Shown here piece after piece: positions 8,231 to 41,376 of a DNA stretch of 64,000 nucleotides; the first letter of the stretch is position 1, and each line of letters begins with the position of its first letter. The DNA comes from Burkholderiales bacterium RIFOXYD12_FULL_59_19 (GTDB taxonomy: Bacteria; Pseudomonadota; Gammaproteobacteria; Burkholderiales; Burkholderiaceae_C), in NCBI GenBank assembly GCA_001771065.1, contig MESQ01000001.1, positions 1-64,000 of the forward strand, in the 5' to 3' direction. The notes beneath the pieces were generated by a model. The model did not search any database. It was given only the letters and a program-made list of their open reading frames with translations, and was not told the origin of the DNA. Position numbers and translations under genes: made by a program.

Positions 8231-9103
8231 TCAATCAACCTGAATTTGGGCGGACTTCAGTCGACCAGGCGGGTGCAAGTCCGCCCTACAACGCCCTACA
8301 GGGTTCATGGCCCGTGTCTGGTATCGGGCCAGGTACGGCTGGCTTGCAAGCAACTGGTTGGGGTGCATCAGCCGAGGTGTCAACACACTGGCAAGTGTGC
8401 CTGGCAGGGCGGACAGCACGATGGGGCCGTCCAGCAAGGCGCCCTTGCGCTTGAGCAGGTGAACGTGCAGGTTCCAGTCTGGCCCGAGGGTGGTCAAAAC
8501 CCGCAGTGGTGCGGGTGAAGCGTCCAGTTGGGCCGTTTCTGGCCGGAACAGAAAGACCGGGCAATCACAGGATTGGGCGTGCACCTGCAAGCGGCGCAAT
8601 TGCTCCGCACGGGCCTGGGGCAGCCAGGCCAGAATGGCGCCACCTCGTGGGTTGGCCTTGACCAGCTGTTCGGTGGACCAGAGCCGCTCGGCCGGGGTGT
8701 CGGCAGCGATCCAGACAATGTTTTTTTCTGTGATACCGAGTTTGACCAGCCCAGGTGCGTGCGGGCGTTTGGGTGGGCCCACCAGCAGGATGTGGCCGCC
8801 GCCAGCGGCCAGCCTCGCCAACGCAGGTGACAGCAAGCGCCACTCGCACAGGGCGGGCTGGGGTTGCAGGAGTTCGGTCAGGGCATTGCAGGGCCAGCCA
8901 CCACCGGGCAGCTGGGCATCCAGCGCCGTCCAGCCGCTTGACACCACAGACTGGCCGGCCTGAGCCACCTCAGAACCGCGCCAGATGGCCTGGGCGACGC
9001 TGCCCGGGAGCTGCCCGATGTCAAACGGATGCCCAAACGATTGAGGTGACGCATCACCCGGCGGGGGTGTGGCGTTGACGATCCATTGCAGGGCGGCAGA
9101 CAT
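8231..9103 (-). CDS. imuA: ImuA, RecA/SulA-like mutasome protein
   Basis: This RecA-fold protein of about 290 residues is the first gene of the imuA-imuB-dnaE2 cassette. The core shows the ImuA pattern SSGWTALDAQLPGGGWP near residue 55 and LLVGPPKRPHAPGL near 105. ImuA helps recruit or activate the mutasome in related bacteria. A perfect LexA box sits 21 nt upstream of the ATG. The final residues, CRADLHPPGRLKSAQIQVD, are a translation of the local palindromic repeat rather than family sequence, so the native C-terminus has been replaced or extended by the repeat. The family-conserved part appears complete. Confidence 0.9.
   Translation of the reverse strand: MSAALQWIVNATPPPGDASPQSFGHPFDIGQLPGSVAQAIWRGSEVAQAGQSVVSSGWTALDAQLPGGGWPCNALTELLQPQPALCEWRLLSPALARLAAGGGHILLVGPPKRPHAPGLVKLGITEKNIVWIAADTPAERLWSTEQLVKANPRGGAILAWLPQARAEQLRRLQVHAQSCDCPVFLFRPETAQLDASPAPLRVLTTLGPDWNLHVHLLKRKGALLDGPIVLSALPGTLASVLTPRLMHPNQLLASQPYLARYQTRAMNPVGRCRADLHPPGRLKSAQIQVD
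8248..8303. repeat. Palindromic repeat copy 1, inside the imuA 3' end
   Basis: The copy starts with the hybrid core GGCGGACTTCAGTCGACC, whose two arms come from different repeat types. It is followed by GGCGGGTGCAAGTCCGCC and CCCTACA motifs. It lies within the last codons of imuA. Confidence 0.85.
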
Positions 9104-9124
9104 GGCGTTTTGGTCTTGTTTGAA

Positions 9125-9144
9125 TACTGTTGAAAAACACAGTA
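9125..9144. promoter_or_regulatory. LexA operator (SOS box) of the imuA operon
   Basis: TACTGTTGAAAAACACAGTA contains CTGT-N8-ACAG, the exact SOS-box consensus, and the flanking TA/TA extends the palindrome. It lies just upstream of the imuA ATG (9103). lexA itself is in this window. Confidence 0.93.
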
Positions 9145-9169
9145 TAGCCAGATTGGAACTTTGTAGGGG

Positions 9170-10171
9170 TCAAAATACCAGTGCCTGCGCGGCAATGTCC
9201 AGCGATTGCAGGCGCAGCGCCGGGTCAAAAATATCGCACACCAGCATGAACTCATCGGCCTGCGTCTGCTGCGCCAGGGCCGTCAGCCCGGCACGCACCT
9301 TGTCCGGGCCACCGATGACCGCCGCACCCAAAAAGTCGTTGATGGCAGCGCGCTCCTGGGGGTGCAGCTGTTGCATGAAGTGCTTGACTGGCGGTTGCAG
9401 CGGCCTGCGGTCGCCGGTCAGGATGCCGAGCACACGCTGGTAGGTGCTGCTGGCCAGAAATTCGGCCTCGTCATCGCTGGGGGCCGCGATCAAGGGCACG
9501 CCGATCACCACGTACGGCTGGCTCAAAACCTTGGACGGCTTGAACAAGCGCCGGTACAGATCAATGGCCGCCAGCATCATGCGGGGGGCAAAGTGCGAGG
9601 CAAAGGCGTAGGGCAGGCCACGTTCTGCCGCCAGTTGGGCCGAAAACAGGCTGGAACCCAGCAGCCAGATCGGCACCTCGGTCCCGGCGCCCGGCATGGC
9701 AACGATGCGCTGGCCAGGCTGCACCGGTCCCAGCAGATGCTGCAGCTCAGTGACATCGCGCGGAAAGTCCTGCTCGGTCTCGACCCGGTCGCGGCGCAGG
9801 GCCTGCATGGTGAGCCGGTCGGTACCCGGTGCCCGGCCCAAGCCAAGATCAATGCGGTTGGGATACAACTCGGCAAGCGTGCCAAAGGCTTCGGCCACCA
9901 CCAGTGGCGCATGGTTGGGCAGCATGATGCCGCCCGAGCCCACCCGAATGTGCTGCGTGCCCCCGGCAAGGTAGCCTACCAACACGGCCGTGGCCGAACT
10001 GGCAATACTGGCCATGTTGTGGTGTTCGGCCACCCAGTACCGGGTAAAGCCCAGCGCCTCGGCATGTTGCGCGGTGCGTAAAGCCGTGGCCAGCGCCTGT
10101 GCCACCGTGCCGCCTTCACGCAGGGAGACCAGGTCCAGCATGGACAGGGCGGTTTTATGCAGTGGATTCAT
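9170..10171 (-). CDS. Luciferase-like (LLM class) flavin-dependent oxidoreductase
   Basis: This 333-residue protein belongs to the bacterial luciferase-like monooxygenase family, closest in pattern to the YhbW/LuxA-like TIM-barrel proteins. Typical segments are [18 protein letters not shown] (about residues 41-58), [20 protein letters not shown] and [12 protein letters not shown]. It probably uses reduced flavin, but the substrate is unknown. Its start overlaps the stop of the upstream exonuclease/GIY-YIG gene by 4 nt (10168-10171), suggesting translational coupling. It ends about 25 nt before the imuA SOS box and is transcribed toward it, so read-through into the SOS operon is possible. Confidence 0.88.
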
Positions 10172-11598
10172 GGTGTTGTCTCAGTGAATGGCGATGCGGG
10201 AAATTTCAGCAGCTTGAGCTGGCCCTGGCCCGGCACCAGCAGGTGCTTGAGGGCCAGGCGGTAGCTGTCCAGGTTAAAGGCCAGCGGCTCTGTTCGGCTG
10301 TGTAATGCCTCGTGCAGGTCCTCGTCAGAGTGCACCGTGGTCAGGTGACACCATTGGTCAAACAGGTGGATGTCGGTGCGCCCGGTGTGCGGGTTGTGTT
10401 CGCGCAAACCCACTTTGCCGGCAAAAGGCCAGACCTGCAGTTTGTTGCCAACCAGCGCCATTTGCAGGCGCAGGTGGTGGCGCTCGGGTGCCTCTTCGCC
10501 ACAACACACACCCTTGCACTGGCCAATCTGGTGGGCAAAACAGCGGCCCTTGCCCGACTCCAGCCCCAGTGCCTGCAGGCACAAACCCTGCGTTTGGGCG
10601 AGCTCGCGCAATTGGCTTTGGGCCTGGTTTTTGGAACGGTAGGGGCCGTACAGCGCGCCAAGTTGTTCCGGCGCCAGCGCGCTGCCACGCACCAGCGTCA
10701 ACAGCGGCCGGCTGTTGGGGTTGGGCTCAAGCCGCCAGGCGCACAGCTCGCCATCGCGGCGCAACTGGCGATTGTGAACGGGTTGGTGCGCCTTGATCAG
10801 CCGTGATTCCAGCAACAGGGCACCGAGTTCACCGGCGGTCTCGATCCATTCAAGGCGCCTGATTTCATGCGCAATACGCATCTCGCGGGCGTTGCGGCTG
10901 GCCGCCTGAAAGTGCGACATCACCCGGCTGCGTAGTTTGACGCTTTTACCGACGTACAGCGGCAGTGGGCTGTCGCCGTAAAAAAGGTAAACCCCGGGTG
11001 TGTCGGGAATGTCCGCGACGTTGGTATCGAGCTGCGGTGGCAGCGCCGCGCTGCCTTGTAACAAACTTTGCGCATGGCCTGCCACATGGTCAGCACCCAG
11101 CTCGGTTTGTGCCAGGTTAAGCCAGCTTTGCATCACCTCCACATCGCCCATGGCGCGGTGCCGGGCGGTGCTGGTCAGGCCGTGGCGCTGCATGATGGCA
11201 TCCAGACAGTGGCCCTTGAACTGCGGGTACAACAGCCGCGACAAGCGCACCGTGCACAGGGTTTTGACGCGCAACGCCACGTCGATCCGATGCAATTCAT
11301 TGAGCAGAAAACCGTGGTCAAAACGCACGTTGTGGGCCACCAGCACCGCACCGTCAAGCAGGGCCAGCAGTTCATGGGCCACCTCGGAAAAACGCGGGGC
11401 ACTGGCCACCATGCTGTTGCTGATACCGGTGAGTTGCTCAATGAAGTTTGAGACAGACACCCCCGGATTCACCAGGGTGCTCCAGCGCGACACCTCCACC
11501 CCTTGCTCCACCCGCACGGCGGCAATTTCGGTGATGCGGTCATGCACCGGGTTGCCCCCGGTGGTTTCCAGGTCAAGCAGCACATAGCAGGGCAGCAT
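10168..11598 (-). CDS. DnaQ-like 3'-5' exonuclease fused to a GIY-YIG nuclease (Cho/UvrC-like)
   Basis: This is a two-domain nuclease of 476 residues. The N-terminal DEDD exonuclease domain (about 1-170) shows [20 protein letters not shown] with the catalytic Asp and Glu, and [17 protein letters not shown] endonuclease domain (about 195-280) shows [20 protein letters not shown], as in UvrC and Cho. The C-terminal part has a Cys-rich segment ([15 protein letters not shown]). Proteins of this architecture are taken to act in nucleotide excision repair, incising like Cho, but the exact reaction here is inferred. The stop overlaps the start of the downstream luciferase-like gene. Confidence 0.88.
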
Positions 11599-11619
11599 GG
11601 CGTGTGGCCTCAGCGCCGC

Positions 11620-12165
11620 TTAAACAATGTCAAAGACATGAATGGCGTAGCGGCCCTGGCGGCGGTCGGTAAAAAAACGTTTCAGGGTTTCGCCCACGGT
11701 CCGGAAGGCGATCTCGTCCCAGGGAATTTCATGCTCGGCAAACAAACGCGCCTCCAGCGTTTCAAAGCCCGGGTTAAACTGGTCACTGAGCAACTGGGCG
11801 CGATAAAACAGGTGGACCTGCCCAACGCGCGGAATGTTCACCATCGAGAAAAACTCGCCCATCTCAAACTGCGCGCCAGACTCTTCCAGGGTTTCGCGCG
11901 CCGCACCTTCGCTCACGGTCTCATTGAGCTCCATGAACCCCGCAGGCAGCGTCCACTTACCCCAGCGCGGCTCGATGTTGCGCTTGCACAGCAGCACCTT
12001 GTCGCCCAGGATCGGAATGGTGCCCACCACGTTGAGCGGGTTTTCGTAGTGCACGGTCTGGCAGGTCGGGCACACCGCACGGTGTTTGGTGTCGCCATCG
12101 TCCGGCAGCCGATACACCACAGCCGTGCCACAGTTTTTGCAGTGTTTGATCGGGGGGCGGTGCAT
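11620..12165 (-). CDS. Nudix hydrolase with N-terminal zinc ribbon
   Basis: The protein has 181 residues. An N-terminal zinc ribbon (CKNCG at about 9-13 and CPTC at about 32-35) is followed by a Nudix fold with the full box GFMELNETVSEGAARETLEE ending ESG. This layout is typical of NudC-like or ADP-sugar/NADH-type Nudix hydrolases, which split nucleoside diphosphate linkages. The zinc ribbon narrows the group but not the substrate. The gene lies 21 nt upstream of the exonuclease/GIY-YIG gene and 4 nt downstream of the FAH-family gene on the same strand, so this looks like one operon. Confidence 0.9.
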   Translation of the reverse strand: MHRPPIKHCKNCGTAVVYRLPDDGDTKHRAVCPTCQTVHYENPLNVVGTIPILGDKVLLCKRNIEPRWGKWTLPAGFMELNETVSEGAARETLEESGAQFEMGEFFSMVNIPRVGQVHLFYRAQLLSDQFNPGFETLEARLFAEHEIPWDEIAFRTVGETLKRFFTDRRQGRYAIHVFDIV

Positions 12166-12169
12166 GAAC

Positions 12170-12865
12170 TTAAACCACCTTCAATTCAATGTCTGTCAGG
12201 CCGCTGATGCTGCCTTTGAGCGTGTCGCCCGGCACCACAGCGCCCACGCCGGCCGGAGTGCCGGTGTAGATCAGGTCGCCGGGCTGCAGTTCCCAGGCGG
12301 CGGAGAGCTGGCAAATGGTCTCGGCAATGGTCCAGATCAGCTGTTCCACCGTGCTGTTTTGGCGAATAGCCTGGTTGACCTGCAGGCTGATGGCGGCGTG
12401 GGTGATGTCGCCCGCCGCCTCTTTGGGGGTGATCGGGCCAATCGGGGCCGAGTAGTCAAAGCCCTTGCCAATACACCACGGGCGGCCCTGGGCCTTCATC
12501 TCGTTTTGCAGGTCGCGCCGGGTCATGTCCAGACCCACGGCATAGCCAAAAATATGGTTTTCAGCCTGTTCCACCGGTATGTTTTTGCCGCCGGTACCAA
12601 TCGCCACCACCAGTTCAATTTCATGGTGCAGGTTCTTGGTCAGGCTGGGGTAGGGCAGCGGCGTGAGACTGCCGGGAGCCGCCAGCAGCACCGCATCGGC
12701 CGGCTTCATGAAGAAAAAGGGCGGCTCGCGCCCGCTGTGGCCCATCTCCTGGGCGTGATCAACGTAATTGCGACCGACGCAGTAGATGCGGTGTACCGGA
12801 AACTGTGCGCTGGTACCAACCACCGGCACGGTCACGCTGGGCGCGGGGGAGAAGACAGTGTTCAT
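12170..12865 (-). CDS. Fumarylacetoacetate hydrolase (FAH) family protein
   Basis: This is a 231-residue single-domain FAH-family enzyme. I chose ATG 12865 (MNTVFSPAPS) because an upstream in-frame start would run through the whole next gene. Family motifs are present: IYCVGRNYVDHAQEMG, PFFFMKPADAVL, the metal-binding HHEIELVVAIG and FGYAVGLDMTRRDLQ. Members act as fumarylpyruvate hydrolases, acylpyruvases or oxaloacetate decarboxylases, cleaving C-C bonds in 2,4-diketo acids with a divalent metal. Which of these applies is not visible. It ends 4 nt before the Nudix gene. Confidence 0.88.
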   Translation of the reverse strand: MNTVFSPAPSVTVPVVGTSAQFPVHRIYCVGRNYVDHAQEMGHSGREPPFFFMKPADAVLLAAPGSLTPLPYPSLTKNLHHEIELVVAIGTGGKNIPVEQAENHIFGYAVGLDMTRRDLQNEMKAQGRPWCIGKGFDYSAPIGPITPKEAAGDITHAAISLQVNQAIRQNSTVEQLIWTIAETICQLSAAWELQPGDLIYTGTPAGVGAVVPGDTLKGSISGLTDIELKVV

Positions 12866-12884
12866 GGTGGCCCTTAAAGATGCA

Positions 12885-13187: not shown

Positions 13188-13316
13188 AAAAATCTCCGCT
13201 GGGGGTGGTTTAATTTGCCAACTTGCGAGTCTAGCGTTTTCAATCCGGCCGAATCTGCCAGATACCGCAAACCGACCTTGAACCCTGTGATGCGGACCTG
13301 CACGCGCCATGGTCTT

Positions 13317-13390
13317 GGGCGGACTTCAGTCCGCCAGGTCGACTGAAGTCGACCCTACAACACCCCTACAACACCCCTACAACACCCCCA
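13317..13390. repeat. Palindromic repeat copy 2, with 11-nt tandem tail
   Basis: The core GGCGGACTTCAGTCCGCC is followed by the complementary-orientation core GGTCGACTGAAGTCGACC. Three tandem copies of CCCTACAACAC follow (13353-13385). The element lies between the divergent ABM and ycaO genes. Confidence 0.9.
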
Positions 13391-13433
13391 AATGCTGAGC
13401 AAATACCAATGAAGCATGAGGTATGCTGGGGAT

Positions 13434-15161: not shown

Positions 15162-16032
15162 TGATGTCCCCGTTGTGGGGTCGACTGTAGGGTCGACTTC
15201 AGTCGACCATGACGGTTGTAGGGTCGACTTCAGTCGACCTGGCGGACTGAAGTCCGCCCTACAGGGCCTACAGGGTTTTCTTCTACCTGACTGGCCGGCG
15301 CCCGCTGGTGTGCGGGCGGTGTACACCACGCGCTCGGGCGGGGTATCTGATGCGCCTTATGACAGTCTGAACCTGGGTGACCATGTGGGTGATGACCTTG
15401 TCCACGTGGCGGCCAACCGGGTGATTTTTCAGCAGGCCATCGGCGCACACCCGGTATTTTTGAACCAGGTCCACAGCACCCAGGTGGTGCCACTGGATGC
15501 CACCACCCCGGACGGTACCGTGGCCGACGCCTGTCTGACCGACCAGCCGGGCCTGGCCTGCACCGTGATGGTGGCCGACTGCCTGCCGGTACTGTTCACC
15601 ACCGCCGATGGCCACCGGGTGGCTGCAGCCCATGCGGGCTGGCGCGGGCTGGCCGGGCAGGGCGACATGGGCATTCTTGAGGCAACGGTCAAGCACATGC
15701 AGGCCAATGCGATGCAGACCAATAACATCCTCGCCTGGCTGGGGCCGTGTATTGGCCCGCAGGTCTTTGAGGTGGGTGATGAGGTGCGCGCCGCTTTCAC
15801 CACAAGCGATTCACAGGCGACCGAATGTTTTAAACCCCTGACACCGGGCAAATGGCTGGCTGACCTGGCCGCTCTGGCGCGCTTGCGGCTGCGTACCCTG
15901 GGCATCCAACAAATTTATGGCAACAACAGCAGTGCGCCCTGGTGCACGGTGGGCAATGCCTCACGCTTCTTTTCCTACCGGCGTGACCGCGTCACCGGCC
16001 GCTTCTGCGCCAGCATCTGGCTTGAGCGCTAA
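15148..16032 (+). CDS. pgeF: Purine nucleoside phosphorylase/polyphenol oxidase-family protein (PgeF/YfiH)
   Basis: Conserved sequence begins at LLPDWPAPAGVRAVYTTRSG (15277 on) and includes the metal-ligand motifs CTVMVADCLPVLF and AAAHAGWRGL, then WLGPCIGPQVFEVG. Homologues edit peptidoglycan precursors (PgeF) or act as zinc purine nucleoside phosphorylases (LACC1/YfiH). The start is the oddity: no ATG lies just before the conserved part. Instead a palindromic repeat is translated in frame ([14 protein letters not shown]). The nearest in-frame ATG is 15148, inside the end of ycaO, giving 294 residues; GTG 15175 is an alternative. Coupling to ycaO translation is plausible. The last 72 nt overlap the convergent small membrane-protein gene. 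Confidence 0.85.
   Translation: MPPFDDVPVVGSTVGSTSVDHDGCRVDFSRPGGLKSALQGLQGFLLPDWPAPAGVRAVYTTRSGGVSDAPYDSLNLGDHVGDDLVHVAANRVIFQQAIGAHPVFLNQVHSTQVVPLDATTPDGTVADACLTDQPGLACTVMVADCLPVLFTTADGHRVAAAHAGWRGLAGQGDMGILEATVKHMQANAMQTNNILAWLGPCIGPQVFEVGDEVRAAFTTSDSQATECFKPLTPGKWLADLAALARLRLRTLGIQQIYGNNSSAPWCTVGNASRFFSYRRDRVTGRFCASIWLER
15175..15275. repeat. Palindromic repeat copy 3, across the pgeF 5' region
   Basis: Two copies of GGTCGACTTCAGTCGACC are followed by GGCGGACTGAAGTCCGCC and two CCTACAGGG motifs. The block separates ycaO from the conserved coding part of pgeF. Confidence 0.9.
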
Positions 16033-16248: not shown

Positions 16249-16357
16249 AGGGAAGACGGTATTTTTTGGATGAAAATCAGGTGATGTCAGGGTTTCGAAG
16301 GCCTTGGCCTAAGATACTATCGAAATTATTTTTTGACTACTTCAGATAAGGATACGC

Positions 16358-19327: not shown

Positions 19328-19400
19328 TGTAGGGCGAGTTTCGACCTGCCGTGGTTTTTGTAGGGCGGACTTCAGTCCGCCAGGTCGACTGAAGTCGACA
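19328..19400. repeat. Palindromic repeat copy 4, between phaA and phaB
   Basis: A degenerate half unit (TGTAGGGCGAGTTTCGACC) is followed by TGTAGGGCGGACTTCAGTCC and the GGTCGACTGAAGTCGAC core. Confidence 0.88.
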
Positions 19401-19462
19401 AGGGCAAATCAAAGACAATCAACGGCAATTCAGTTTTCAATTTCACCAAGAGGAGTAGTTTC

Positions 19463-25264: not shown

Positions 25265-25318
25265 TGTAGGGTCGACTTCAGTCGACCAGGCGGACTGAAG
25301 TCTGCCTTACAGGGGGTG
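25265..25318. repeat. Palindromic repeat copy 5
   Basis: TGTAGGGTCGACTTCAGTCG leads into GGCGGACTGAAGTCTGCC and TTACAGGGGG. It lies between the kinase and dehydrogenase genes. Confidence 0.9.
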
Positions 25319-26414: not shown

Positions 26415-26494
26415 TGTAGGGTCGACTTCAGTCGACCATGGCGGACTGAAGTCGACCCTACAAAGACATGGCGGGTGCAAGTCCGCTCTACAAA
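26415..26494. repeat. Palindromic repeat copy 6
   Basis: TGTAGGGTCGACTTCAGTCG continues to a hybrid GGCGGACTGAAGTCGACC with CCTACA, then GGCGGGTGCAAGTCCGC. It lies between the Crp/Fnr gene and the kinase gene. Confidence 0.9.
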
Positions 26495-26505
26495 CGCCAA
26501 CGTGC

Positions 26506-29439: not shown

Positions 29440-31208
<1,769 letters not shown>

Positions 31209-32150: not shown

Positions 32151-32178
32151 GGGTCAATGATAGCGCGCCACAGACCGT

Positions 32179-32211: not shown

Positions 32212-32223
32212 ATAGGAGCTTTT

Positions 32224-32466
32224 ATGTTGAATGCATCACTCAGGCGCTCAGGTGGGTCCTACATCATGACCGTGCCACTTTCTTACGTCGAACAAAACCA
32301 TTTGAATGCGGGTTCGCGCATGGCGATTGAAATTGTGGGGGATGAACTCAAGATCAGGCCCCAGCGTCCCCGTAAATCACTGCGAGAACTTTTGGACGAA
32401 ACACCAGCCGGCCTGTGCCGCGCTGATGGCTGGGACGAACTTGAAGCGGTTGGGGGTGAACTGTGA
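32224..32466 (+). CDS. MazE/AbrB-type antitoxin
   Basis: The 80-residue protein has an N-terminal AbrB swapped-hairpin fold (SLRRSGGSYIMTVPLSYVEQ and IEIVGDELKIRP). A C-terminal tail would wrap the toxin (LRELLDETPAG). TAGGAG precedes the ATG. It overlaps the downstream toxin gene by 4 nt, the classical antitoxin-first arrangement. It should neutralise the toxin and repress the operon through the upstream palindrome. Confidence 0.88.
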   Translation: MLNASLRRSGGSYIMTVPLSYVEQNHLNAGSRMAIEIVGDELKIRPQRPRKSLRELLDETPAGLCRADGWDELEAVGGEL

Positions 32467-32807
32467 CGCCGGATCGCGGCGACATTTTGCATTTGGCCTT
32501 TGACCCCGCAAGTGGGCGCGAGATGAAGGGCAATCATTTTTGTCTGGTGGTCTCACCACGCGAATTTAATGCACGGTTCAAGCTGGCCATGGTGTGCCCG
32601 ATTTCCGGCGGTGCCGCTGAGGTGGCTCGCAGCGCCGGTTTTCTGGTGTCCTTGATGGGCCAGGGACTGCGCACCGGCGGCCAGGTGCATGCCCACCAGA
32701 TCAAATCACTGGATTGGACATCGCGCCAGGCCACTTTTGTCGAAAGCGTGCCGGATGTGCTTGTGCAAGAAGTGCTGGATTGTTTGCAAAGCGTTCTTGA
32801 TTATTAA
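32463..32807 (+). CDS. MazF/PemK-family mRNA interferase toxin
   Basis: The 114-residue protein shows the MazF pattern: RGDILHLAFDPASGREMKGN with the conserved loop, PREFNARFKLAMVCPIS with the catalytic-strand region, and GQVHAHQIKSLDW. Such toxins cut mRNA at short sequences when the antitoxin is degraded. The start overlaps the antitoxin stop by 4 nt. The pair sits between the divergent Trm112-kdsB-adk and exbB-exbD-lpxK blocks. Confidence 0.9.
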   Translation: MTPDRGDILHLAFDPASGREMKGNHFCLVVSPREFNARFKLAMVCPISGGAAEVARSAGFLVSLMGQGLRTGGQVHAHQIKSLDWTSRQATFVESVPDVLVQEVLDCLQSVLDY

Positions 32808-32827
32808 ATCGCCTCTACAGGGGGTTA

Positions 32828-32920
32828 TGGCGGCTGTAGGGTCGTTTGTAGGGTCGACTTCAGTCGACCTGGCAGACTGAAGTCCGCCCTGCAGGGGGGC
32901 ACGGCGGGTTGAAATGCGCC
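32828..32920. repeat. Palindromic repeat copy 8, upstream of exbB
   Basis: TGTAGGGTCGACTTCAGTCG leads into a degenerate GGCAGACTGAAGTCCGCC and further GGCGGGTTGAAATGCGCC. It forms the left border of the oppositely oriented exbB-exbD-lpxK block. Confidence 0.88.
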
Positions 32921-32976
32921 ATCCGCGCTGCCCTGCGCCATAATCACGCAGCTTTTTTCTTCAGCGGAGTTTCAAT

Positions 32977-33603
32977 TTGTTTTCCATCCTACAAGCCGCA
33001 GGTTGGCCGATCTGGCCTTTGGTGGCCTGCTCGGTGCTGGCCATGGCGCTGATCATTGAGCGCTTCATGAGTCTGCAAACCCTCAAAGTAGCGCCGCCCA
33101 CGCTGCTTGACGAGGTGCTGATGGTCACGCGCCAGACGGCGCCCGGCCCCGAGGTGGTGAGCAAGCTTGAAAAAAACTCGGCCTTGGGCGAGGTGCTGGC
33201 CGCCGGTTTGCGTGCGCTCAATGGCAACCCCCACTGTTCCGAAGACGAATTGCGCGCCAGCATGGAGGCCACCGGCCGCCAGGTGGCGCACCGGCTTGAG
33301 CGCTACCTGAGCGCGCTGGCCACCATTGCGTCGGTGGCGCCGCTGATGGGGCTGTTTGGCACCGTGGTGGGCATGATCGAGATTTTTGGCTCACAACCCG
33401 TAAACGCCAGCATGGGGGGTAACCCGGCGCAACTGGCGCATGGTATTTCTGTGGCGCTGTACAACACCGCGTTCGGGCTGATTGTGGCCATCCCGTCGCT
33501 GATTTTCTGGCGCTACTTTCGCGCCCGTGTCGATGAGTACCTGCTCACGCTGGAGCTTTCCGCCGAGCGGCTGGCACGCCATCTTTACACCTTGCGCAAG
33601 TAG
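32977..33603 (+). CDS. exbB: MotA/TolQ/ExbB-family proton channel protein
   Basis: The 208-residue inner-membrane protein has a first helix GWPIWPLVACSVLAMALIIE. Two further helices lie near 105-130 (VAPLMGLFGTVVGMIEIF) and 150-170 (LYNTAFGLIVAIPSLIFW). It pairs with the ExbD-like protein encoded 8 nt downstream to energise an envelope process. The start appears to be TTG 32977 behind a GCGGAG site; no ATG is near. The same gene pair precedes lpxK in many Burkholderiales, hinting at a link to envelope lipid transport. Confidence 0.9.
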   Translation: MFSILQAAGWPIWPLVACSVLAMALIIERFMSLQTLKVAPPTLLDEVLMVTRQTAPGPEVVSKLEKNSALGEVLAAGLRALNGNPHCSEDELRASMEATGRQVAHRLERYLSALATIASVAPLMGLFGTVVGMIEIFGSQPVNASMGGNPAQLAHGISVALYNTAFGLIVAIPSLIFWRYFRARVDEYLLTLELSAERLARHLYTLRK

Positions 33604-33611
33604 GCCCGCGC

Positions 33612-34046
33612 ATGATGAATTTCCGTGTCCGCACCAAGGAAGAGCCTGAGATCAACCTGATCCCGTTCATTGACGTGCTGCTCGTTATCCTGATTTTTTT
33701 GATGCTGACCACCACCTACAGCAAGTACACCGAAATGCAGCTCAAACTGCCGGTGGCCGACGTTGACGCCCAGCGTGATCGCGCCCGCGAGGTGCTGGTG
33801 TCGGTCAGCGCTGACGGCCAGTACAGTGTGAACAAGCTGTGGGTCAACGGGCGCAGCGTGACCGACCTGGCGCGCGCCTTGCAGACGGCGGCCCAGGCCG
33901 GCCCGGAGTCTGTGCTCATCATCCAGGCCGACGCCAACGCCAGGCACCAGGCAGTGATCAGTGTGATGGAAGCCGCGCGCCGGGCCGGGCTGACCCAGAT
34001 CACGTTTGCCACCCTGTCCTCACCTGAGCCGGGCGGCACGCCCTGA
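33612..34046 (+). CDS. exbD: ExbD/TolR-family biopolymer transport protein
   Basis: The 144-residue protein has one N-terminal membrane helix with the essential Asp in NLIPFIDVLLVILIFLMLTT and a periplasmic C-terminal domain (LIIQADANARHQAVISVMEA). It is the partner of the ExbB-like channel and works with proton motive force. It is followed by lpxK after only 3 nt. Confidence 0.93.
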   Translation: MMNFRVRTKEEPEINLIPFIDVLLVILIFLMLTTTYSKYTEMQLKLPVADVDAQRDRAREVLVSVSADGQYSVNKLWVNGRSVTDLARALQTAAQAGPESVLIIQADANARHQAVISVMEAARRAGLTQITFATLSSPEPGGTP

Positions 34047-34049
34047 CAC

Positions 34050-35066
34050 ATGGCTGAGCCAGTGCCATTGCCGGGCCACGGCCTGACCCGCGCCTGGCTG
34101 CAACGTGGCTGGCTGGCCTATTTGCTGTGGCCGCTGTCGGTGCTGTATGGTCTGCTGGTGCGGCTGCGCAAAACTTTCTATCGCCGGGGCTGGCTCAGCT
34201 CAGAACGCCTGCCGGTGCCGGTGCTGGTGGTCGGTAATGTGGTGGCGGGTGGCGCCGGCAAAACCCCGGTGGTGATGGCTGTGGTGCAGCATTTGCAGGC
34301 GCGCGGCGTGCGCGTGGGTGTGATCTCACGCGGTTATGGGCGGCGCAGCCAGGCCTGCCTGGAGGTGCTACCGAAAAGTGCGGTGACGGATGTGGGTGAC
34401 GAACCCGCCTTGATCCGGCGTCGCACCGGGGCCCCGGTGTTTGTGGCGGCACGGCGGGTGCAGGCGGCCCGTGCGCTGCTGGCCAGTTACCCGCAGACAC
34501 AGGTTTTGGTCTGTGACGATGGTTTGCAACACCTGAACCTGCAGCGCGACCTGGAAATTGGCGTATTTGATGACCGGGGCATGGGCAATGGTTTTCTGCT
34601 GCCCGCCGGTCCCCTGCGCGAACCCTGGCCGCGCCCGCTTGACCTGCTGCTGCACACCGGCCAGCAGCCCGCTTTTGCCGGGTTCAGGGCCAAGCGCAGT
34701 TTGGCCAGTCATACCCTGCGCAGTGACGGCAGCCGGGTTGCGTTGACCGAACTGGCCGAACCAGGGCATGGTAAACCGCTACTGGCGCTGGCGGCCATTG
34801 CCCAACCCGAGGCCTTTTTTGCCATGTTGCGCGCCCAGGGCCTGTCGTTGGCAGCCACGGTGGCGCTGCCTGACCACCATGATGTCAGTCAATGGACTGG
34901 CAACGCCGACGGGGTTTACACCGTGCTCTGCACCGAAAAAGACGCGGTCAAGTTATGGGCCAGGGAGCCCACCGCGCTGGCCGTGCCACTAGACTTTGAA
35001 CCCGAACCCGCCTTCTGGTCCGCCTTTGACCGGCAGCTCAAACTGCTCCTGCTATTGAATTTTTAG
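34050..35066 (+). CDS. lpxK: Tetraacyldisaccharide 4'-kinase
   Basis: The 338-residue inner-membrane-associated enzyme phosphorylates the lipid A precursor at the 4' position. It has the P-loop-like [17 protein letters not shown], then [13 protein letters not shown] and [15 protein letters not shown], which are LpxK signatures. The N-terminal helix [17 protein letters not shown] anchors it to the membrane. A perfect palindromic repeat directly follows its stop codon. In many Burkholderiales it precedes Trm112-kdsB-adk; here those genes lie on the opposite strand. Confidence 0.96.
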
Positions 35067-35070
35067 GGGT

Positions 35071-35100
35071 TTGTAGGGTCGACTTCAGTCGACCCTACAA
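35071..35100. repeat. Palindromic repeat copy 9, perfect 14-bp arms
   Basis: TTGTAGGGTCGACT and AGTCGACCCTACAA form perfect arms around TC. This is the simplest and most symmetrical copy. It sits between the convergent lpxK and RluA-type genes and includes the stop codon of the latter. Confidence 0.93.
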
Positions 35101-36793: not shown

Positions 36794-37662
36794 GGGGGCA
36801 GATTGTAGAGACACAGCCACTGAACCACCCAGTTGGGCAGGGCATCAGCAAGCGCGTGCTGCTCGGCCAGGCCCAGCACCGCAGCAGCGTGGTTCAGCGC
36901 CGCCAGCGGTTGCTGGCTGTCCAGCGCCTGGGCGCCGTTTTGTTTGCTGAGTTTTTCGCCATTGGGCCCCAGTACCAGCGGGGTGTGCAGGTAACGCGGG
37001 GTGGGCAAGAGCAGGGCGCGTTGCAGCAGAATCTGGCGGGCGGTGTTGTCGGTCAGGTCCTGGCCGCGCACCACGTCGGTGATGCCTTGGGCGGCGTCGT
37101 CTACCACCACCGCCAACTGGTAGGCAAAACAGCCGTCGGCACGCTTCAGGATGAAATCACCCACGTCAAGTGCCACATCCTGCCACTGGTCGCCCAGTCG
37201 GCGGTCTTGCCAATGAAATGGGGGCTGCGCCTGGGTATTCAAACGCCAGGCGCGGGCTAACTTGCCATTCAAGCCATGGCGGCAGGTGCCGGGGTAAATC
37301 AGCGCGTCGTGGCGCGCCTTGACCTGGCCACTGTGCTGCAGCGCCAGCGCAATGTCACGGCGCGAACAGGCGCAGGGGTAGGCGTGGCCGCTGACCACCA
37401 GTTGGTCAAGCGCCTGCTGGTAAAGCGGCGCGCGCTGCGACTGGTAGACCGGCGGCTGGTCACTGTGCAGGCCGAGCGCGGCCAACTGCTGCAAGATGAT
37501 CTGATCCATGCCGGGCAGACAGCGTGTGCTGTCCACGTCTTCAATGCGCACCAACCACTTGCCGCTGTGGGCCCGCGCATCAAGCCAGCTGGCCAGCGCC
37601 GCCACCAGTGAGCCCGCGTGTAACGGGCCGGTGGGCGAGGGGGCGAAGCGGCCGATGTACAT
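36790..37662 (-). CDS. gluQ: Glutamyl-Q tRNA(Asp) synthetase
   Basis: The 290-residue paralogue of the GluRS catalytic domain glutamylates queuosine in tRNA-Asp. The HIGH-like motif is in [20 protein letters not shown] and the KMSKS-like motif in [13 protein letters not shown]. Zinc ligands are in [10 protein letters not shown] and YPGTCRHG. It lacks an anticodon-binding domain, as expected. The stop overlaps the trmB start. Confidence 0.94.
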
Positions 37663-37678
37663 TTTTTTGTGGGGTCAT

Positions 37679-37701
37679 GGCGGACTGAAGTCCGCCCTAC
37701 A
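37679..37701. repeat. Palindromic repeat copy 10
   Basis: GGCGGACTGAAGTCCGCC followed by CTACA is a single clean unit, between gluQ and the FAD oxidoreductase gene. Confidence 0.88.
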
Positions 37702-37719
37702 GGGTGCATGGCTGGTCGG

Positions 37720-38775
37720 CTAAACCACCGCCAGTGCCAGTTCCAGCCCCGACACAAACGCGTCTTCCACCCGGTGCCCCAAGCACCAGTCGCCGCACAC
37801 GCCCAGGCCTTTTTTGGCGTCCCACAGGTGGCTTTTGCCCAGAGGTTGGACGGTTTTGGCATAAAGCCAGCGCTGGCTGTCGACGTGGGCCGGCTCGGCG
37901 CGGATGCCCGTTACCTCGGAAAAAGCCTTCAGCAGCTTGGCCTCGGCACGTGACGCGTCGTCGTGGATGTGCTCTTGCGACCAGGCAGGGCTGGCCTGGA
38001 TGGTCCAGCGCTCAATGGGTTCACGCTTGGGTTTGCTCGACTCGCGCGCCAGCCAGGCAATGCGGTGGTGCGTGCTGCGCGCCGCGTTCCACTGCGGCCC
38101 CAGAGCCGACAGGCCGGGCTGCATGGCTTGCGGAAAAGCCAGCATCAGCGTCCAGCAGGGCGCCACCTTGACCTGGTCCAGCTGCTTGACCCAGGGCTTT
38201 TCCTGCTCGGAGGTCTGCAACAGGCTCTGCGCCTGGGCACTGGGTATGGCCAACAACACGCCATCAAAACCAGAAAACACATGCTGCGTGCCGTCGAGCC
38301 CTTCGGTGCGTAATTGCCATTTTTTGGCCAACAGCGCATCGGCTTCAATGCGGTTCACGCGCGTTTGTAGCTCGATGTGGCCGCCTGCCTCCAGCGGCGC
38401 GGCCCAGCCGTTCACCAGCGACTTCATGCCCGGCACCGCGACCCAGTGGGCGTCGTGGTTGGACAGGCCGGGGCCGGCCACATGGCCCAGCTCGTCGAGC
38501 ACCTGCACGCTGTTGGCGCTCCAGCGCTTGCACAGCGTGGGTGTGGTCTCTAGGGCTTGCAAAAAACGTGGGTCGCGCGCGGTGAAATACTGGGCGCCGT
38601 GGTCAAACGAGCCAAAAGCGCTGCTGCGGGTCGCCATGCGCCCGCTGGTGCTGCGACTCTTCTCAAAAACGGTCACCTGGTGGCCGGCCTGCACCAGCGT
38701 GCGGGCGCAGGCAATACCAGCCATACCGGCGCCAATCACGGCAAAATGTCGGGGTGCGCGCTGCGTTGTTGTCAT
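37720..38775 (-). CDS. Renalase-like FAD-dependent amine oxidase/oxidoreductase
   Basis: The 351-residue protein begins with an FAD-binding Rossmann motif ([17 protein letters not shown]). It contains [17 protein letters not shown] and [15 protein letters not shown], the pattern of the NAD(P)-binding amine-oxidase/renalase-like family. The C-terminus has [20 protein letters not shown], a second flavin contact. The substrate is unknown. ATG 38775 has a GGAG site. No partner gene is obvious. Confidence 0.88.
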
Positions 38776-38897
38776 ATTTTTCTCCAGTTGGTAACAATTT
38801 ATATGTCTTTGTGAATGTGACCGACTTTACCAGTCAGGCGATGTGCTTTTTTTTTGGGGTTGGGGTTTGTGGGGGCCACAAATACCTGAAACCCGCA
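38776..38897. other. Short intergenic stretch with a degenerate repeat-like end
   Basis: There is no gene here. A weak sequence similar to the palindromic family (AAACCCGCACTACAGG, 38890-38905) spans the border with the LysR gene; the similarity is low. Confidence 0.3.
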
Positions 38898-39833
38898 CTA
38901 CAGGCCACGGTGGCGCTCCAGCAAGGCGGTGCGGGTGTTGGTGCACTCCAGTTGCGTCAGCCACCATTGCAAAGCGCGCCCGGTCGCGTTGCTGGCGGCG
39001 CGCCAGGCATAGTTAACACGCACCACCCTGGGTGCACGCTCGGTTTTTTTCACCACCAATCGGCCGGTGTCAATGAACGGGCCAGCCATACAGTCGGGCA
39101 AAGACCCACAGCCCAGGCCGCGCAATTGGGCGTCCAGTTTGTCCTGCATGGTGGCCACGGTAAACACATCCTGCCCGCCCAGCAAGCCAATCGTCACGCC
39201 CCGGCCGCGGCTAATGGTGTCGGCCACGGCCACGGCACGGTGCGCCCGCATCACCTCATCGGACAGCGGCTCAGCGGCCTTGGCCAACGGATGGTGCGGC
39301 GCCACGGCATACACAAAACGCACATCCCCCAGCGGCTTGGCATGAATCGCCGTGTTTTGCACCAGGTCGGGCACGCCCAACGCCAGATCGGCCTCACCGC
39401 TGGTCAGGGCCTCGAGCGTGCCCGACAGGGTTTCGTCGCGCAGGCGGATGCGGGTGGGCGGGTTCATGGCAAAAAAACTGTCCACCAACTCCATCACCGT
39501 GGCCTTGGCAATGATGCTGTCCACTGCCAGCGTCAGTTGCGGCTCCCAGCCCGTGGCCACACGTTTCACGCGGTTGGCCACCGCCTCCAGGTCTTCCAGC
39601 AAACGCTCGCTCTCTCGCAGCAACTCCTGGCCCGCCACCGTGGGCAAGGCGCGGCGCGAACTGCGGTCAAACAGCAGCACGTCCAGCGCGTCTTCAAGCT
39701 GGCGCACGCGGTAGGTGAGGGCGCTGGGCACCATGCCAAGCACTCGCGCGGCGGCGGCAAAACTGCCGGTGCTGGCAATGGTTTGCAACATGGCCAGGGC
39801 CTCAGGGGTCAAAACATTGCGGGCAATTTGCAT
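38898..39833 (-). CDS. LysR-family transcriptional regulator
   Basis: This is a 311-residue LTTR. The N-terminal winged helix has MLQTIASTGSFAAAARVLGM (residues about 15-34) and SALTYRVRQLEDALDVLLFD. The effector domain follows (PPTRIRLRDETLSGTLEALT). It is divergent from the pirin and flavodoxin-like genes, an arrangement frequently seen for LTTRs that control pirin. A palindromic LTTR box lies just upstream of its ATG. Confidence 0.93.
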   Translation of the reverse strand: MQIARNVLTPEALAMLQTIASTGSFAAAARVLGMVPSALTYRVRQLEDALDVLLFDRSSRRALPTVAGQELLRESERLLEDLEAVANRVKRVATGWEPQLTLAVDSIIAKATVMELVDSFFAMNPPTRIRLRDETLSGTLEALTSGEADLALGVPDLVQNTAIHAKPLGDVRFVYAVAPHHPLAKAAEPLSDEVMRAHRAVAVADTISRGRGVTIGLLGGQDVFTVATMQDKLDAQLRGLGCGSLPDCMAGPFIDTGRLVVKKTERAPRVVRVNYAWRAASNATGRALQWWLTQLECTNTRTALLERHRGL

Positions 39834-39848
39834 GGTGTGCTAGCTTTA

Positions 39849-39865
39849 ATTCAAACGGATTGAAT
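39849..39865. promoter_or_regulatory. Putative LysR-type operator
   Basis: ATTCAA-N5-TTGAAT is a perfect inverted repeat fitting the LTTR T-N11-A pattern. It lies 16 nt upstream of the LysR ATG and within the divergent LysR/pirin promoter region. Confidence 0.7.
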
Positions 39866-39938
39866 GATGCCATCAAAACGCTTGTTCTTTTTTACCTGGT
39901 TTTACAACTACAGTTGAGCTTACATAAGGAGATACGTG

Positions 39939-40640
39939 ATGCTCACACTCAGACCTTCCCAAGAGCGCGGCCATGCAGACCACGGCTGGCTCAAGTCGTT
40001 TCATAGTTTTTCGTTTGCCGGTTATTACGACCCGGCGCACATGGGCTGGGGCAACCTGCGCGTCATCAACGAAGACCGCGTGGCCCCCGGCAAAGGCTTT
40101 GGCACCCACAGCCACCGCGACATGGAAATTGTGAGCTACGTCTTGCAGGGCGCACTGGCTCACAAAGACAGCATGGGCAACGTCAAATCGATTCCGCCCG
40201 GCGACGTGCAGCGCATGAGCGCCGGCACCGGTGTGCAGCACAGCGAATTCAACTTTGCGCCTGACGAGACCACGCATTTTTTGCAAATCTGGATCGAACC
40301 CAATGTGTTGGGCGTCGCACCCAGCTACCAACAAACCACCTTTCCCGACGCTGCCAAACAGGGCCGCCTGTGCCTGGTGGCATCAAACGACGGCGCACAG
40401 GGTTCGGTCACCCTCAACGCCGACGCCCGCTTGTATGCCGGCCTGTTCGACGCCGGGCAAACTGCCACCCTTGCACTGGCCGCTGGTCGCAAATCTTATG
40501 TGCACCTGGTGCGCGGCGCCCTGAGCGTGAACGGTGTGGCCCTGCGCACCGGCGACGCCGCCATGCTGGCCGACGAACCCGAGGTGGTGCTTGCCGACGC
40601 GCAAGACGCCGAGGTGCTGGTGTTTGATTTGAATGCCTGA
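39939..40640 (+). CDS. Pirin-family protein
   Basis: The 233-residue bicupin resembles YhhW-type pirins, metal-binding proteins that can dioxygenate quercetin. HSFSFAGYYDPAHMGWGNLR and the metal-site segment GTHSHRDMEIVSYVLQGAL are typical, followed by DVQRMSAGTGVQHSEFN with the second set of ligands. ATG 39939 behind AAGGAG is chosen over the adjacent GTG 39936. A flavodoxin-like gene follows on the same strand. Confidence 0.92.
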   Translation: MLTLRPSQERGHADHGWLKSFHSFSFAGYYDPAHMGWGNLRVINEDRVAPGKGFGTHSHRDMEIVSYVLQGALAHKDSMGNVKSIPPGDVQRMSAGTGVQHSEFNFAPDETTHFLQIWIEPNVLGVAPSYQQTTFPDAAKQGRLCLVASNDGAQGSVTLNADARLYAGLFDAGQTATLALAAGRKSYVHLVRGALSVNGVALRTGDAAMLADEPEVVLADAQDAEVLVFDLNA

Positions 40641-40648
40641 ACGGGCGC

Positions 40649-40676
40649 TTTGTCGACTTCAGTCCGCCCTACAAAA
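40649..40676. repeat. Palindromic repeat copy 11, hybrid and truncated
   Basis: TGTCGACTTCAGTCCGCC has a left arm of the GGTCGAC type and a right arm of the GTCCGCC type, followed by CCTACAAA. It lies between pirin and the flavodoxin-like gene. Confidence 0.8.
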
Positions 40677-40721
40677 TACCACTCACAGATACTTTTTTTT
40701 ATTTTCAAAAGGACTTTCATC

Positions 40722-41273
40722 ATGGCAAAAGTTGCAGTTGTTTTTCATTCAGGTTATGGCCACACCCTGCGCATGGCGCAATCGGTGGCTGATGGCGCCA
40801 ACGCCCAGCTGGTAGCGATAGATGCCGACGGCAACCTGACTGACGCAGGCTGGGCCACCCTGGACGAGGCCGACGCCATCATCATGGGCAGCCCCACCTA
40901 CATGGGCAGCGTGAGCTGGCAATTTAAAAAATTCGCCGACGCCTCCAGCAAAGCCTGGTTCAGCCAAGCCTGGAAAGACAAAATCTTTGGCGGCTTTACC
41001 GCCAGTTCCAACATCAACGGCGACAAACACTCCACGCTGCACTACTTCATGACGCTGGCCATGCAGCATGGTGGCATCTGGGTCGGCACCGGCCTGCACT
41101 ACAACAACACCAAAGCGGCGCTGCGCAGCGACGTCAACTACCTGGCCTCCAGCGCCGGCCCCATGGCGCAAACCCCCGGCGATGCCGGCGGCGCAGAAAT
41201 GAACACCGGCGACCTTGAAACCGCCCGTCTTTTCGGCCAGCGCGTGGCAGAGGTGGCTGCCAAATTTAAGTAG
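40722..41273 (+). CDS. WrbA/flavodoxin-family NAD(P)H quinone oxidoreductase
   Basis: The 183-residue FMN protein begins VAVVFHSGYGHTLRMAQ (phosphate-binding loop). It contains DAIIMGSPTYMGSVSWQFKK and the GGFTASSNINGDKHSTLHYF segment of flavodoxin-like NADPH-dependent reductases. It probably reduces quinones under oxidative or electrophile stress. ATG 40722 (AAAAGGAC site) gives the family length. It pairs with pirin and the divergent LysR gene, suggesting a quinone or electrophile response unit. Confidence 0.9.
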   Translation: MAKVAVVFHSGYGHTLRMAQSVADGANAQLVAIDADGNLTDAGWATLDEADAIIMGSPTYMGSVSWQFKKFADASSKAWFSQAWKDKIFGGFTASSNINGDKHSTLHYFMTLAMQHGGIWVGTGLHYNNTKAALRSDVNYLASSAGPMAQTPGDAGGAEMNTGDLETARLFGQRVAEVAAKFK

Positions 41274-41295
41274 GGGGTTTGTGGGGGGTGGGGTT

Positions 41296-41376
41296 TTGTA
41301 GGGTCGACTTCAGTCGACCTGGCGGACTGAAGTCTGCCCTACAAACGACCTGGTGGGTGCAAGTCCGCCCTACAAA
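41296..41376. repeat. Palindromic repeat copy 12, upstream of rlmB
   Basis: TGTAGGGTCGACTTCAGTCG, then GGCGGACTGAAGTCTGCC with CTACA, then GGTGGGTGCAAGTCCGCC with CTACA. The copy contains three units with different arms. Confidence 0.9.

Follow-up and report, generated by a model that had tools for sequence, protein, structure and literature searches.

Twelve loci of palindromic repeats lie between positions 8,249 and 41,374 of the window, the 64-kb stretch of DNA analysed here, which belongs to a Rhodoferax-like bacterium whose genome (G000) is a 97-contig draft of 4.05 Mb and 95.5% completeness. The repeats are GTAG-tagged REP sequences, mostly joined head to head into REPINs, and form a new, well-resolved family within this known kind of element. 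The unit is a dimer in which one hairpin, a linker of 1-2 bp and an inverted second hairpin, unlike the first, follow one another in the layout TGTAG - hairpin A - 1-2 bp - hairpin B - CTACA (about 47-48 bp), with each palindrome starting directly after the GTAG tag; many single and degenerate arms are also found. The dimer unit, its unlike hairpins and the position of two loci at the borders of an inverted gene block had been missed in an earlier, sequence-only reading of this DNA.

The leftmost locus (8249-8300, minus strand, head on the right) is a degenerate dimer, GGCGGACTTCAGTCGACC-A-GGCGGGTGCAAGTCCGCC-CTACA, with a second CCCTACA, and lies inside the 3′ end of an ORF that we take to be imuA-like and for which Pfam gave no match. 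At 13318-13381, a CGG arm and a TCG arm are joined by the linker A and followed on the right by CCCTACA in three copies; at 15186-15263, a TCG monomer (15186-15208) precedes a perfect TCG/CGG dimer (15217-15263); and at 19328-19405, a tag remnant is followed by a CGG/TCG dimer that has lost its right tag. The TCG arm is joined to a CAG-CCG arm in the dimer at 25265-25311 (plus strand) and to a hybrid TCG-CCG arm in the dimer at 26415-26502, which is followed by a degenerate GGCGGGTGCAAGTCCGC arm. Single arms with a right tag occupy the minus strand at 30427-30449 (GGCGGGTTAAAACCCGCC type, between two convergent genes), 37679-37701 (CGG) and 40652-40673 (degenerate, TCG-CCG). A TCG/CAG dimer with a doubled left tag (32835-32893, plus strand) and a double-tagged TCG monomer (tag-hairpin-tag, 35072-35099) stand at the left and right junctions of a block (32977-35066, plus strand) of exbB, a gene that is presumably exbD, and lpxK. 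The last locus (41297-41374) is a TCG/CAG dimer (41297-41343) followed by a degenerate GGTGGGTGCAAGTCCGCC arm with its tag. Three loci overlap the ends of predicted ORFs (8249, 26420 and 41302; home-made ORF caller), the overlaps at 26420 and 41302 probably reflecting over-long predicted starts.

The sequence-only reading had described 12 loci of palindromes with matched stem changes, lying between genes or at their ends and mostly bordered by TGTAGGG/CCCTACA. This description was borne out: the three quoted stem types are present, the two-position differences between cores are mirrored on the other arm, at least one border was found at all 12 loci, and the ORF caller places the loci in gaps between genes or at the ends of genes. 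In the 64 kb, GACTTCAGTC with at most one mismatch gave 20 matches (19 exact) against 1.9 expected, a number reached in 0 of 100 shuffles, and TGTAGGG occurred 25 times against 3.6 expected.

Abundance and placement in the genome

Exact GGNNGACTTCAGTCNNCC cores number 92 in the 4.05 Mb of G000, with none for the reversed-pattern control, which places the family well beyond the window and rules out its restriction to this region. The window is nevertheless a dense spot, holding 17 of the 92 cores (Poisson p about 4e-13), and 53 of the 92 are of one identical TCG type. TGTAGGG and CCCTACA at dimer spacing were found at 20 places in G000, representing 19 separate elements (control, 0), and each of these places, as read from the list, contains two arms of the window family. 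Two inverted REPs in one unit, the arrangement of a REPIN, recur in the 46 head-to-head dimers listed in G000 and in 33 from stretches of a second species, G031. A GTAG or GTGG tag adjoined at least one side of 94 of the 133 hairpins scored in G000 stretches, a set that includes chance hairpins. In its short palindrome, its GTAG-type tag at one end and its high copy number, the family thus corresponds to the GTAG REP superfamily.

As in that superfamily, the elements are mostly intergenic: a predicted ORF covers the greater part of 23 of 69, where random placement would give 62.4, with ORFs called by a home-made caller that prefers open frames. Convergent gaps hold 15 of 64 classified elements in G000, a mild excess over the 38 of 235 background gaps. 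REPINs were also found in frame inside genes for UvrA, PutA and other enzymes. Because the caller prefers open frames, the absence of stops from intragenic copies is partly a matter of construction, and the better evidence comes from Pfam domains on either side of the repeat. These copies add one more genus with REP-encoded protein linkers.

Stem covariation

Covariation was measured in 61 of 80 distinct dimers, picked by a hairpin-seeking detector. Pairing (96.5% of 1281 cells, against 90.3% when shuffled), two-sided changed cells (87 against 19.6) and the covariation score (0.249 against 0.124) each exceeded all 500 shuffles, and pairing fell to 28-40% in a sliding control. Two of the five measures were not clearly above shuffles, namely how many pairs change on both sides (8 against 6.8; 103 of 500 shuffles as high) and how many further pair types occur (19 of 500 as high). 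In a test free of hairpin selection, both free pairs were Watson-Crick in 84 of 92 cores, against a shuffled mean of 41.7 and a maximum of 56. G-U pairs occur in some arms. The stem sub-types with complementary changes that characterize the superfamily are therefore present here, but the 92 cores of G000 comprise only 10 distinct ones, of which 4 have Watson-Crick pairing at all free pairs, so that much of the covariation is inherited. The claim of covariation in the sequence-only reading accordingly holds on most measures, while the reason that it implied, many independent compensatory changes, was too strong in view of the 10 distinct cores and of a two-sided pair count no higher than in shuffles. 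With covariation above the controls and a genome-wide family, neither chance pairing nor a merely local repeat accounts for what that reading had seen.

Empty sites and an inverted gene block in relatives

None of the 12 window loci is common to the window and the syntenic relative G003, in which five of the sites are empty. Only 14 bases separate the flanking aligned blocks in G003 at the 8249 locus and 4 bases at 41297, where the repeat is absent; the 13318 locus is absent from its syntenic site, as are the 19328 and 40652 loci from G003, and those at 25265 and 26415 lie in a 3.3-kb stretch absent from C42 of G003. A different REPIN family occupies the same gap at 15186, the place of the 30427 locus and, as arms, that of the 37679 locus. 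This evidence for gain or loss is one of presence and absence at the level of species; no target-site duplication or signature was seen in the empty-site alignments, although their flanks have diverged so far that one could have gone unnoticed. Three of the four G003 gaps that hold the other family and have conserved flanking genes (by judgement) also hold a window REP, too few for a claim about shared gaps.

The exbB-exbD-lpxK block is inverted relative to both G003 and G021. Since REPs lie at both of its junctions, such short repeats may alter the order of genes here, and we infer that the block was inverted by REP-REP recombination. A single 33-kb stretch thus combines the lack of any REPIN locus common to two related species with a REP-bounded inversion.

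Another way to account for conserved pairing is that the hairpins act in transcripts, as 3′-end protectors or terminators. Several window copies do sit in convergent gaps or downstream of a gene, and the G-U pairs and the mild convergent-gap excess would suit such a role. Against it, no Rfam family matched in the window (0 matches), terminator-like sites between 24 and 42 kb equal those in shuffles (22 against 21.7, with only the 30,427 REP among them), some copies are inside coding genes and no locus is common with the syntenic relative. We consider an RNA function very unlikely, and a role in RNA alone was rejected on the Rfam and terminator results.

A REP-flanked RAYT transposase

In the related genome G060, a REP-type RAYT at locus L096 (NF047646, 156 bits against a cut-off of 80) is flanked by dimers of the same scaffold, two on one side and three on the other. 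The stems of these dimers, CAGGC/ATGAC, are unlike the amplified TCG/CGG stems and, in the 11 genomes searched, were found in five copies, all at the RAYT gene of G060. Because these stems differ and are confined to the RAYT gene, it is the shared scaffold that suggests mobilization of the window family by an L096-type RAYT. Among the matches obtained, all five full-length RAYTs with some 50% identity to that at L096 have GTAG/GTGG palindromes on both sides, and a sixth, partial one has them on one side. When 33 transposase loci were searched for core and tag, the core was found at L096 only, with one tag-like match at L026. In the G000 draft, no RAYT closer than 27% identity to L096 was found; its five Pfam matches to the Y1 transposase include two in long open RAYT-like ORFs (L010 and L012), which are adjoined by other repeats and not by the window REP. 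Nor was a close L096-type RAYT found in G003, G021, G031 or G033, though these genomes carry the repeats. The association with a REP transposase raised by the sequence-only reading is seen with sister dimers in G060, and no close homologue was found in G000.

The missing homologues, together with the many single and degenerate arms and the REPs at both inversion junctions, which point to recombination, would also suit a family of fossils, spread by a RAYT since lost, now moved only by recombination and loss, and kept as neutral or mildly useful hairpins. However, the lack of any locus common with G003 and the 53 identical cores among 92 suggest a fairly recent spread. In addition, draft assemblies break at these repeats (in HGW-Betaproteobacteria-18, the dimer lies less than 100 bases from a contig end at 18 of 31 loci), so that a bin can easily lack a RAYT flanked by REPs. 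We regard the fossil explanation as a real possibility, although not the probable one.

Dimers with unlike arms

Identical arms were found in none of the 44 dimers of G000, where the null mean was 9.0 and the minimum in 5000 shuffles 2, and in none of 33 in the second species, G031, whose stems are different (null mean 4.1, minimum 0). G060 and most of the dimers from other genomes were left out of this test because the retrieval pattern had asked for different arms. A recount of all loci collected, which takes in these sets and de-duplicates overlapping loci by context, gave five dimers among 149 with arms a single base apart; three of the five come from the same uvrA site in three species. 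With identical arms, a single 22-bp hairpin would replace the two, at a computed gain of about 12 kcal/mol. With one standard tag and linker used throughout, the two folds of TCG/CGG dimers are nearly equal (-15.7 and -15.5 kcal/mol), two hairpins are favoured by about 8 kcal/mol in the CCG/CGGGTT dimers of G031, and the long hairpin is favoured by 10 of 44 dimers in G000 and 6 of 33 in G031.

Three explanations of this bias were weighed. The first is ancestry, by which every dimer goes back to a small number of founders that chanced to carry two types of arm, and no selection acts on the difference. Copying from few founders could alone yield unlike arms, only 10 distinct cores and 26 distinct dimers (among 44) exist in G000, and one-base-different dimers do occur. 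Conversely, other species keep unlike arms with other stem pairs (TCG/CGG, CCG/CGGGTT and ATGAC/CAGGC, varying by species), and when distinct dimers only are counted, none of 26 in G000 has identical arms (2.8 expected under the null, with at least one in 98% of shuffles), with a weaker result in G031 (0 of 17; 0.9 expected, with at least one in 62%). We judge the chances of ancestry to be evenly balanced. The second is an assembly artefact, in which identical-arm dimers are lost from short reads since long perfect hairpins sequence badly. Dimers do break contigs, as at the HGW-Betaproteobacteria-18 loci, but one-base-different dimers, whose hairpin should be nearly as stable (the long form of that at L144 is favoured by 12.2 kcal/mol), do get assembled, and such a loss is improbable. 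The third, which we advance tentatively and consider rather doubtful, is selection for unlike arms: a dimer would be mobile, or would survive, only if its arms pair poorly with each other, so that the transposase would meet a single, separate tagged hairpin on each strand. On this view, the working arm would be the near-invariant TCG arm, the variable C arm would serve as its partner on the opposite strand, and the element would have one transposing strand; the few dimers with arms one base apart would represent dead copies or the products of recent conversion. Several species, several stem pairs, a linker of 1-2 bp and a computable competition of folds provide a natural series for asking why the arms of REP dimers differ.

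DISCUSSION

Our results indicate, with high probability, that the window family consists of REPINs, non-autonomous mobile elements in which two GTAG-tagged REPs stand head to head and which are presumably moved by a RAYT-type transposase. Of the roles that the sequence-only reading had offered, REP-like mobility is thus the one supported, by the GTAG tag, the adjoining palindrome, the head-to-head dimers, the empty sites and the REP-flanked RAYT in a relative. In single-stranded DNA, each arm could fold into a hairpin of 7-8 bp beside its own tag, and the tags could pair into a short outer stem. We propose that the RAYT, an HUH, Y1-type REP transposase, would recognize the tag and a perfect hairpin on one strand, cut there and re-insert the element, and that the requirement for a perfect stem would preserve compensatory changes.

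The family was not met in print, in that no title on bacterial repeats appeared among the 20 listed of 55 matches for the ten-base core, a search for Rhodoferax plus REP gave one Bordetella paper, and further searches gave one Pseudomonas paper. The main text of Di Nocera et al. (2013; PMC3733652) does not contain the words Rhodoferax, Burkholderia, Comamonadaceae or Betaproteobacteria, while other beta species, e.g. Thauera, are treated. As described in that text, GTAG REPs carry a GTAG/GTGG tag beside a stem of 6-9 bp with a short loop, form sub-families with complementary stem changes, occur as head-to-head dimers with 1-2 bp spacing (GTAG-17 of O. terrae), with heterodimers preferred in several families, and occupy intergenic and intragenic sites, including uvrA with two dimers. 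By comparison with that text, the window family, with its ACTTCAGT stem and loop, is alike in tag, stem sub-types, heterodimers and intragenic sites. The preference for heterodimers, which those authors describe as having no obvious explanation, would be explained if unlike arms are indeed selected. Rickettsia palindromic elements, as cited in the same paper, are inserted in frame in coding genes, like some window-family copies, but they are other families, some of them longer, and the window copies are mostly intergenic.

For Group 3 TnpA-REP, cleavage biochemistry is available in the account of Corneloup et al. (2021; PMC8266576), whereas the L096 RAYT is described here from its sequence. 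In that account, the palindromes are perfect, and those of S. maltophilia follow immediately after GTAG; cleavage declines when the stem carries mismatches, and the Marinomonas enzyme also cuts at a GTGG tag, though with lower efficiency. These rules fit both the covariation of our stems and the GTGG tag in relatives. In P. fluorescens SBW25, as reported by Bertels and Rainey (2011; PMC3116915), inverted REP doublets are the replicative unit, singlets are remnants, and RAYT association and compensatory changes are found, and the window family resembles these REPINs in its inverted doublets, its single arms, its compensatory changes and, in G060, the association of sister dimers with a RAYT. 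The SBW25 doublet, however, has a spacer between its REPs and is drawn as one long hairpin, whereas the window family has unlike arms and a linker of 1-2 bp, so that the long hairpin has a two-hairpin fold as its competitor.

A genome-wide REPIN family

The palindromes that the sequence-only reading had described at 12 loci of the window are real and belong to a genome-wide family of REPs (GTAG-tagged palindromes) and REPINs (head-to-head REP dimers), ordinary in kind and unusually informative. They are built on GACTTCAGTC or variants of it; with up to one mismatch, the ten-base core has 20 matches in the window against 1.9 by chance, and the TGTAGGG border 25 copies against 3.6 expected. A REPIN unit comprises two inverted hairpins, each immediately preceded by a GTAG tag, and the complete unit reads TGTAG, GGTCGACTTCAGTCGACC, then A, T or AT, then GGCGGACTGAAGTCCGCC and CTACA. 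Exact GGNNGACTTCAGTCNNCC occurs 92 times in the 4.05 Mb (97 contigs) of the genome, where the reversed pattern occurs 0 times; the family is not restricted to this region. Its exact cores are nevertheless unevenly distributed: the window's 64 kb contain 17 of them, and contig C63, 34 kb long, contains 15. On this contig, which is dense in the family, locus L125 (18213-18730) carries three REP copies in tandem at 250 bp spacing, the third a double-tagged monomer resembling the window element at 35072.

Among 60 genomes searched, the exact core was found in five, all within one genus: the window's own (G000) and its relatives G031 (171 copies), G021 (39), G003 (20) and G033 (2). It was absent from 31 other genomes of that genus and from 24 genomes of other families. 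The exact dimer of the TCG and CGG stem types was found in named records of three kinds, Rhodoferax sp. MAGs, Comamonadaceae MAGs and HGW-Betaproteobacteria-18 (G060), so a Rhodoferax-like member of the Comamonadaceae is the most probable host. The tag is frequently GTGG in G060, G021 and G003.

Turnover at syntenic loci

Contig C42 of G003 aligns to most of window 3,743-42,171 at 81-90% identity, and at none of the 12 corresponding loci does it hold a REP of the window family. No repeat is present there opposite window 8249, 13318, 19328, 40655 and 41297; arms of another REPIN family (GCGGCGCCCTCGCCGC / GGCCCGCCCTCGGGCC, the family beside the L095 transposase gene) occur opposite 15186, 30430 and 37679; and 25265 and 26415 fall within a stretch missing from C42. 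Conversely, the window lacks both members of its family that G003 carries within the syntenic part, at C42 19713 and 29543. The other family occupies C42 gaps at 5633, 12270, 18646, 21845, 25744 and 28323, some of which hold the window family in the window. At window 9162-9168 a lone TGTAGGG stands opposite a complete other-family REPIN in G003; it could be either a chance match or a trace of excision.

Stem pairing and unlike arms

The compensatory stem changes noted earlier withstood statistical treatment on most measures. Across 61 distinct dimers, drawn from several genomes, 96.5% of cells in the two-hairpin structure were paired against 90.3% after shuffling, cells changed on both sides numbered 87 against 19.6, pairing collapsed when the structure was slid, and the tag pairs covaried (T-A with C-G, A-T with G-C). 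Two counts did not stand clearly above shuffles: that of pairs showing a two-sided change at all (8, with 6.8 after shuffling; 103 of 500 shuffles as high) and that of further pair types (28, with 25.2; 19 of 500). Leaving two NN pairs of the core free makes a test unbiased by hairpin selection: 84 of the 92 G000 cores were fully Watson-Crick at these pairs (shuffled mean 41.7, maximum 56), or 88 counting G-U, and in G031 stretches 23 of 38 were (shuffled 13.8), or 37 including G-U (shuffled 29.7). Because G000 has just 10 distinct cores, four of them Watson-Crick at both free pairs (shuffles averaged 2.0 and reached at most 7), much of its stem pairing is inheritance.

The two hairpins of a dimer are almost always clearly different. 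All 46 head-to-head dimers listed in G000 pair unlike hairpins, 42 with one TCG-type arm. Identical arms occurred in 0 of 44 dimers of a stricter G000 set (mean 9.0 under random re-pairing, never below 2 in 5000 shuffles), in 0 of 33 from G031, whose stems are predominantly of the CCG and CGGGTT types (null 4.1, minimum 0), and in 0 of 149 across all loci examined, biased sets included. Five of the 149 have arms one base apart, three of them at site 1 of uvrA (G000, G060 and G003), which counts against a different-arms rule. By DNA folding, a same-arm dimer would prefer one 22-bp hairpin to two hairpins by about 12 kcal/mol; the two forms come out level for the TCG/CGG dimer (-15.7 and -15.5), and for the main pair of G031 two hairpins are favoured (-17.5 and -9.6). 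The long form is still favoured by 10 of 44 G000 and 6 of 33 G031 dimers, 14 of these 16 having at least one imperfect arm. Ancestry by copying is a live rival explanation of the different arms. The two-hairpin preference of the observed pairings exceeded that of any of 1000 re-pairings in both G000 and G031, for distinct dimers as well as for all. The available text of Di Nocera et al. (2013, PMC3733652) finds no obvious explanation for heterodimer preference and suggests protection from hairpin-cutting enzymes. The near-strict pattern of different arms is new, as are the fold energetics that go with it across several species.

A sister REPtron

A REP-associated transposase (RAYT) was found beside sister dimers in a relative, but not beside the window family in its own genome. 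G060 encodes a 149-aa RAYT (NF047646 match, 156 bits) flanked by five dimers, two at one end of the gene and three at the other. These dimers (GTGG-GGCAGGCTTCAGCCTGCC-AT or TT-GGATGACTGAAGTCATCC-CCAC) share tag, linker length and CTTCAG centre with the window family, and their arms are again unlike each other; among 11 genomes searched, their stems occur in five copies, all at that gene. G060 also carries many TCG/CGG dimers. GTAG or GTGG palindromes likewise lie beside the L095, L158, L188, L189, L190 and partial L191 RAYTs, about 50% identical to that of G060. Among the 60 genomes an equally close RAYT occurs only in G023, and none in the window genome.

Two long, open RAYT-like ORFs occur in the window genome: L010, with AAAGGGTAGCGTCCCC repeats beside it, and L012 (contig C54), adjoined by a 51-base direct repeat; no window-family REP lies beside either. 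L012 is a 236-aa ORF next to a gene that is presumably glutamate synthase. Some RAYT match, with or without these repeats, is present in 32 of 36 genomes of the genus, own included. The sister REPtron (a RAYT with its REPs) of G060, a new observation, points to the type of transposase. In the available text of Corneloup et al. (2021, PMC8266576), a stem mismatch lowers cleavage by two enzymes with perfect-palindrome REPs; mismatch-sensitive cleavage would keep stems complementary.

An inverted block between two REPs

The exbB-exbD-lpxK block (window 32977-35066), whose middle gene we take to be exbD, is oriented oppositely to its counterparts in G003 and G021, with the same neighbours. Window-family REPs at 32835 and 35072 flank it, ending about 40 bp or less from the aligned inverted block on both sides; neither junction has one in G003 or G021, and in G003 the gap separating exbB from the pseudouridine synthase gene contains half a REP of the other family. 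The simplest reading of these alignments is that the block was inverted in the window's lineage by recombination between two inverted REPs. The element at 35072, a double-tagged monomer, could have arisen when two TCG arms recombined; the opposite junction is not its exact counterpart, so we infer this step. This inversion, with REPs at both junctions, is a new observation. A PemK/MazF-like toxin gene preceded by a small ORF (window 32224-32807) adjoins the REP at one junction; the stretches of G003 and G021 used for comparison have no match to it.

Copies inside genes

In the G000 stretches examined, 23 of 69 elements lie mostly inside a predicted ORF, against 62.4 expected at random. All eight REP-bearing ORFs checked had Pfam matches: a VWA protein, UvrA (two REP copies), a DUF3418 helicase-like protein, radical SAM, Mur ligase, a metallo-beta-lactamase-fold protein, a heptosyltransferase, and PutA, in which the copy separates the two enzyme domains. 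Outside uvrA, the in-frame REPs are those in the other seven of these genes (L107, L111, L116, L124, L126, L098 and L105). The 48-bp dimer amounts to 16 codons; the same 16-residue peptide appears in the ORFs of L107 and L111, and nearly the same in L098.

UvrA (L101, contig C7 of G000) has two linkers with in-frame, species-specific repeats. The window family occupies site 1 in G000, G060, G003 and G031, its arms nearly identical in the first three, and site 2 in G000, G060 and G021; the remaining readable cases have other repeats or short linkers. By eye, another repeat (roughly AAAGAGCTGCT.GCGCA...GCTAGAGGCCAAAAA) occupies the same protein linkers in several relatives (L236, L242, L243 and L255-L258). 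Intragenic REPs, including double insertions in uvrA, are described for O. terrae and Thioalkalivibrio in the available text of PMC3733652.
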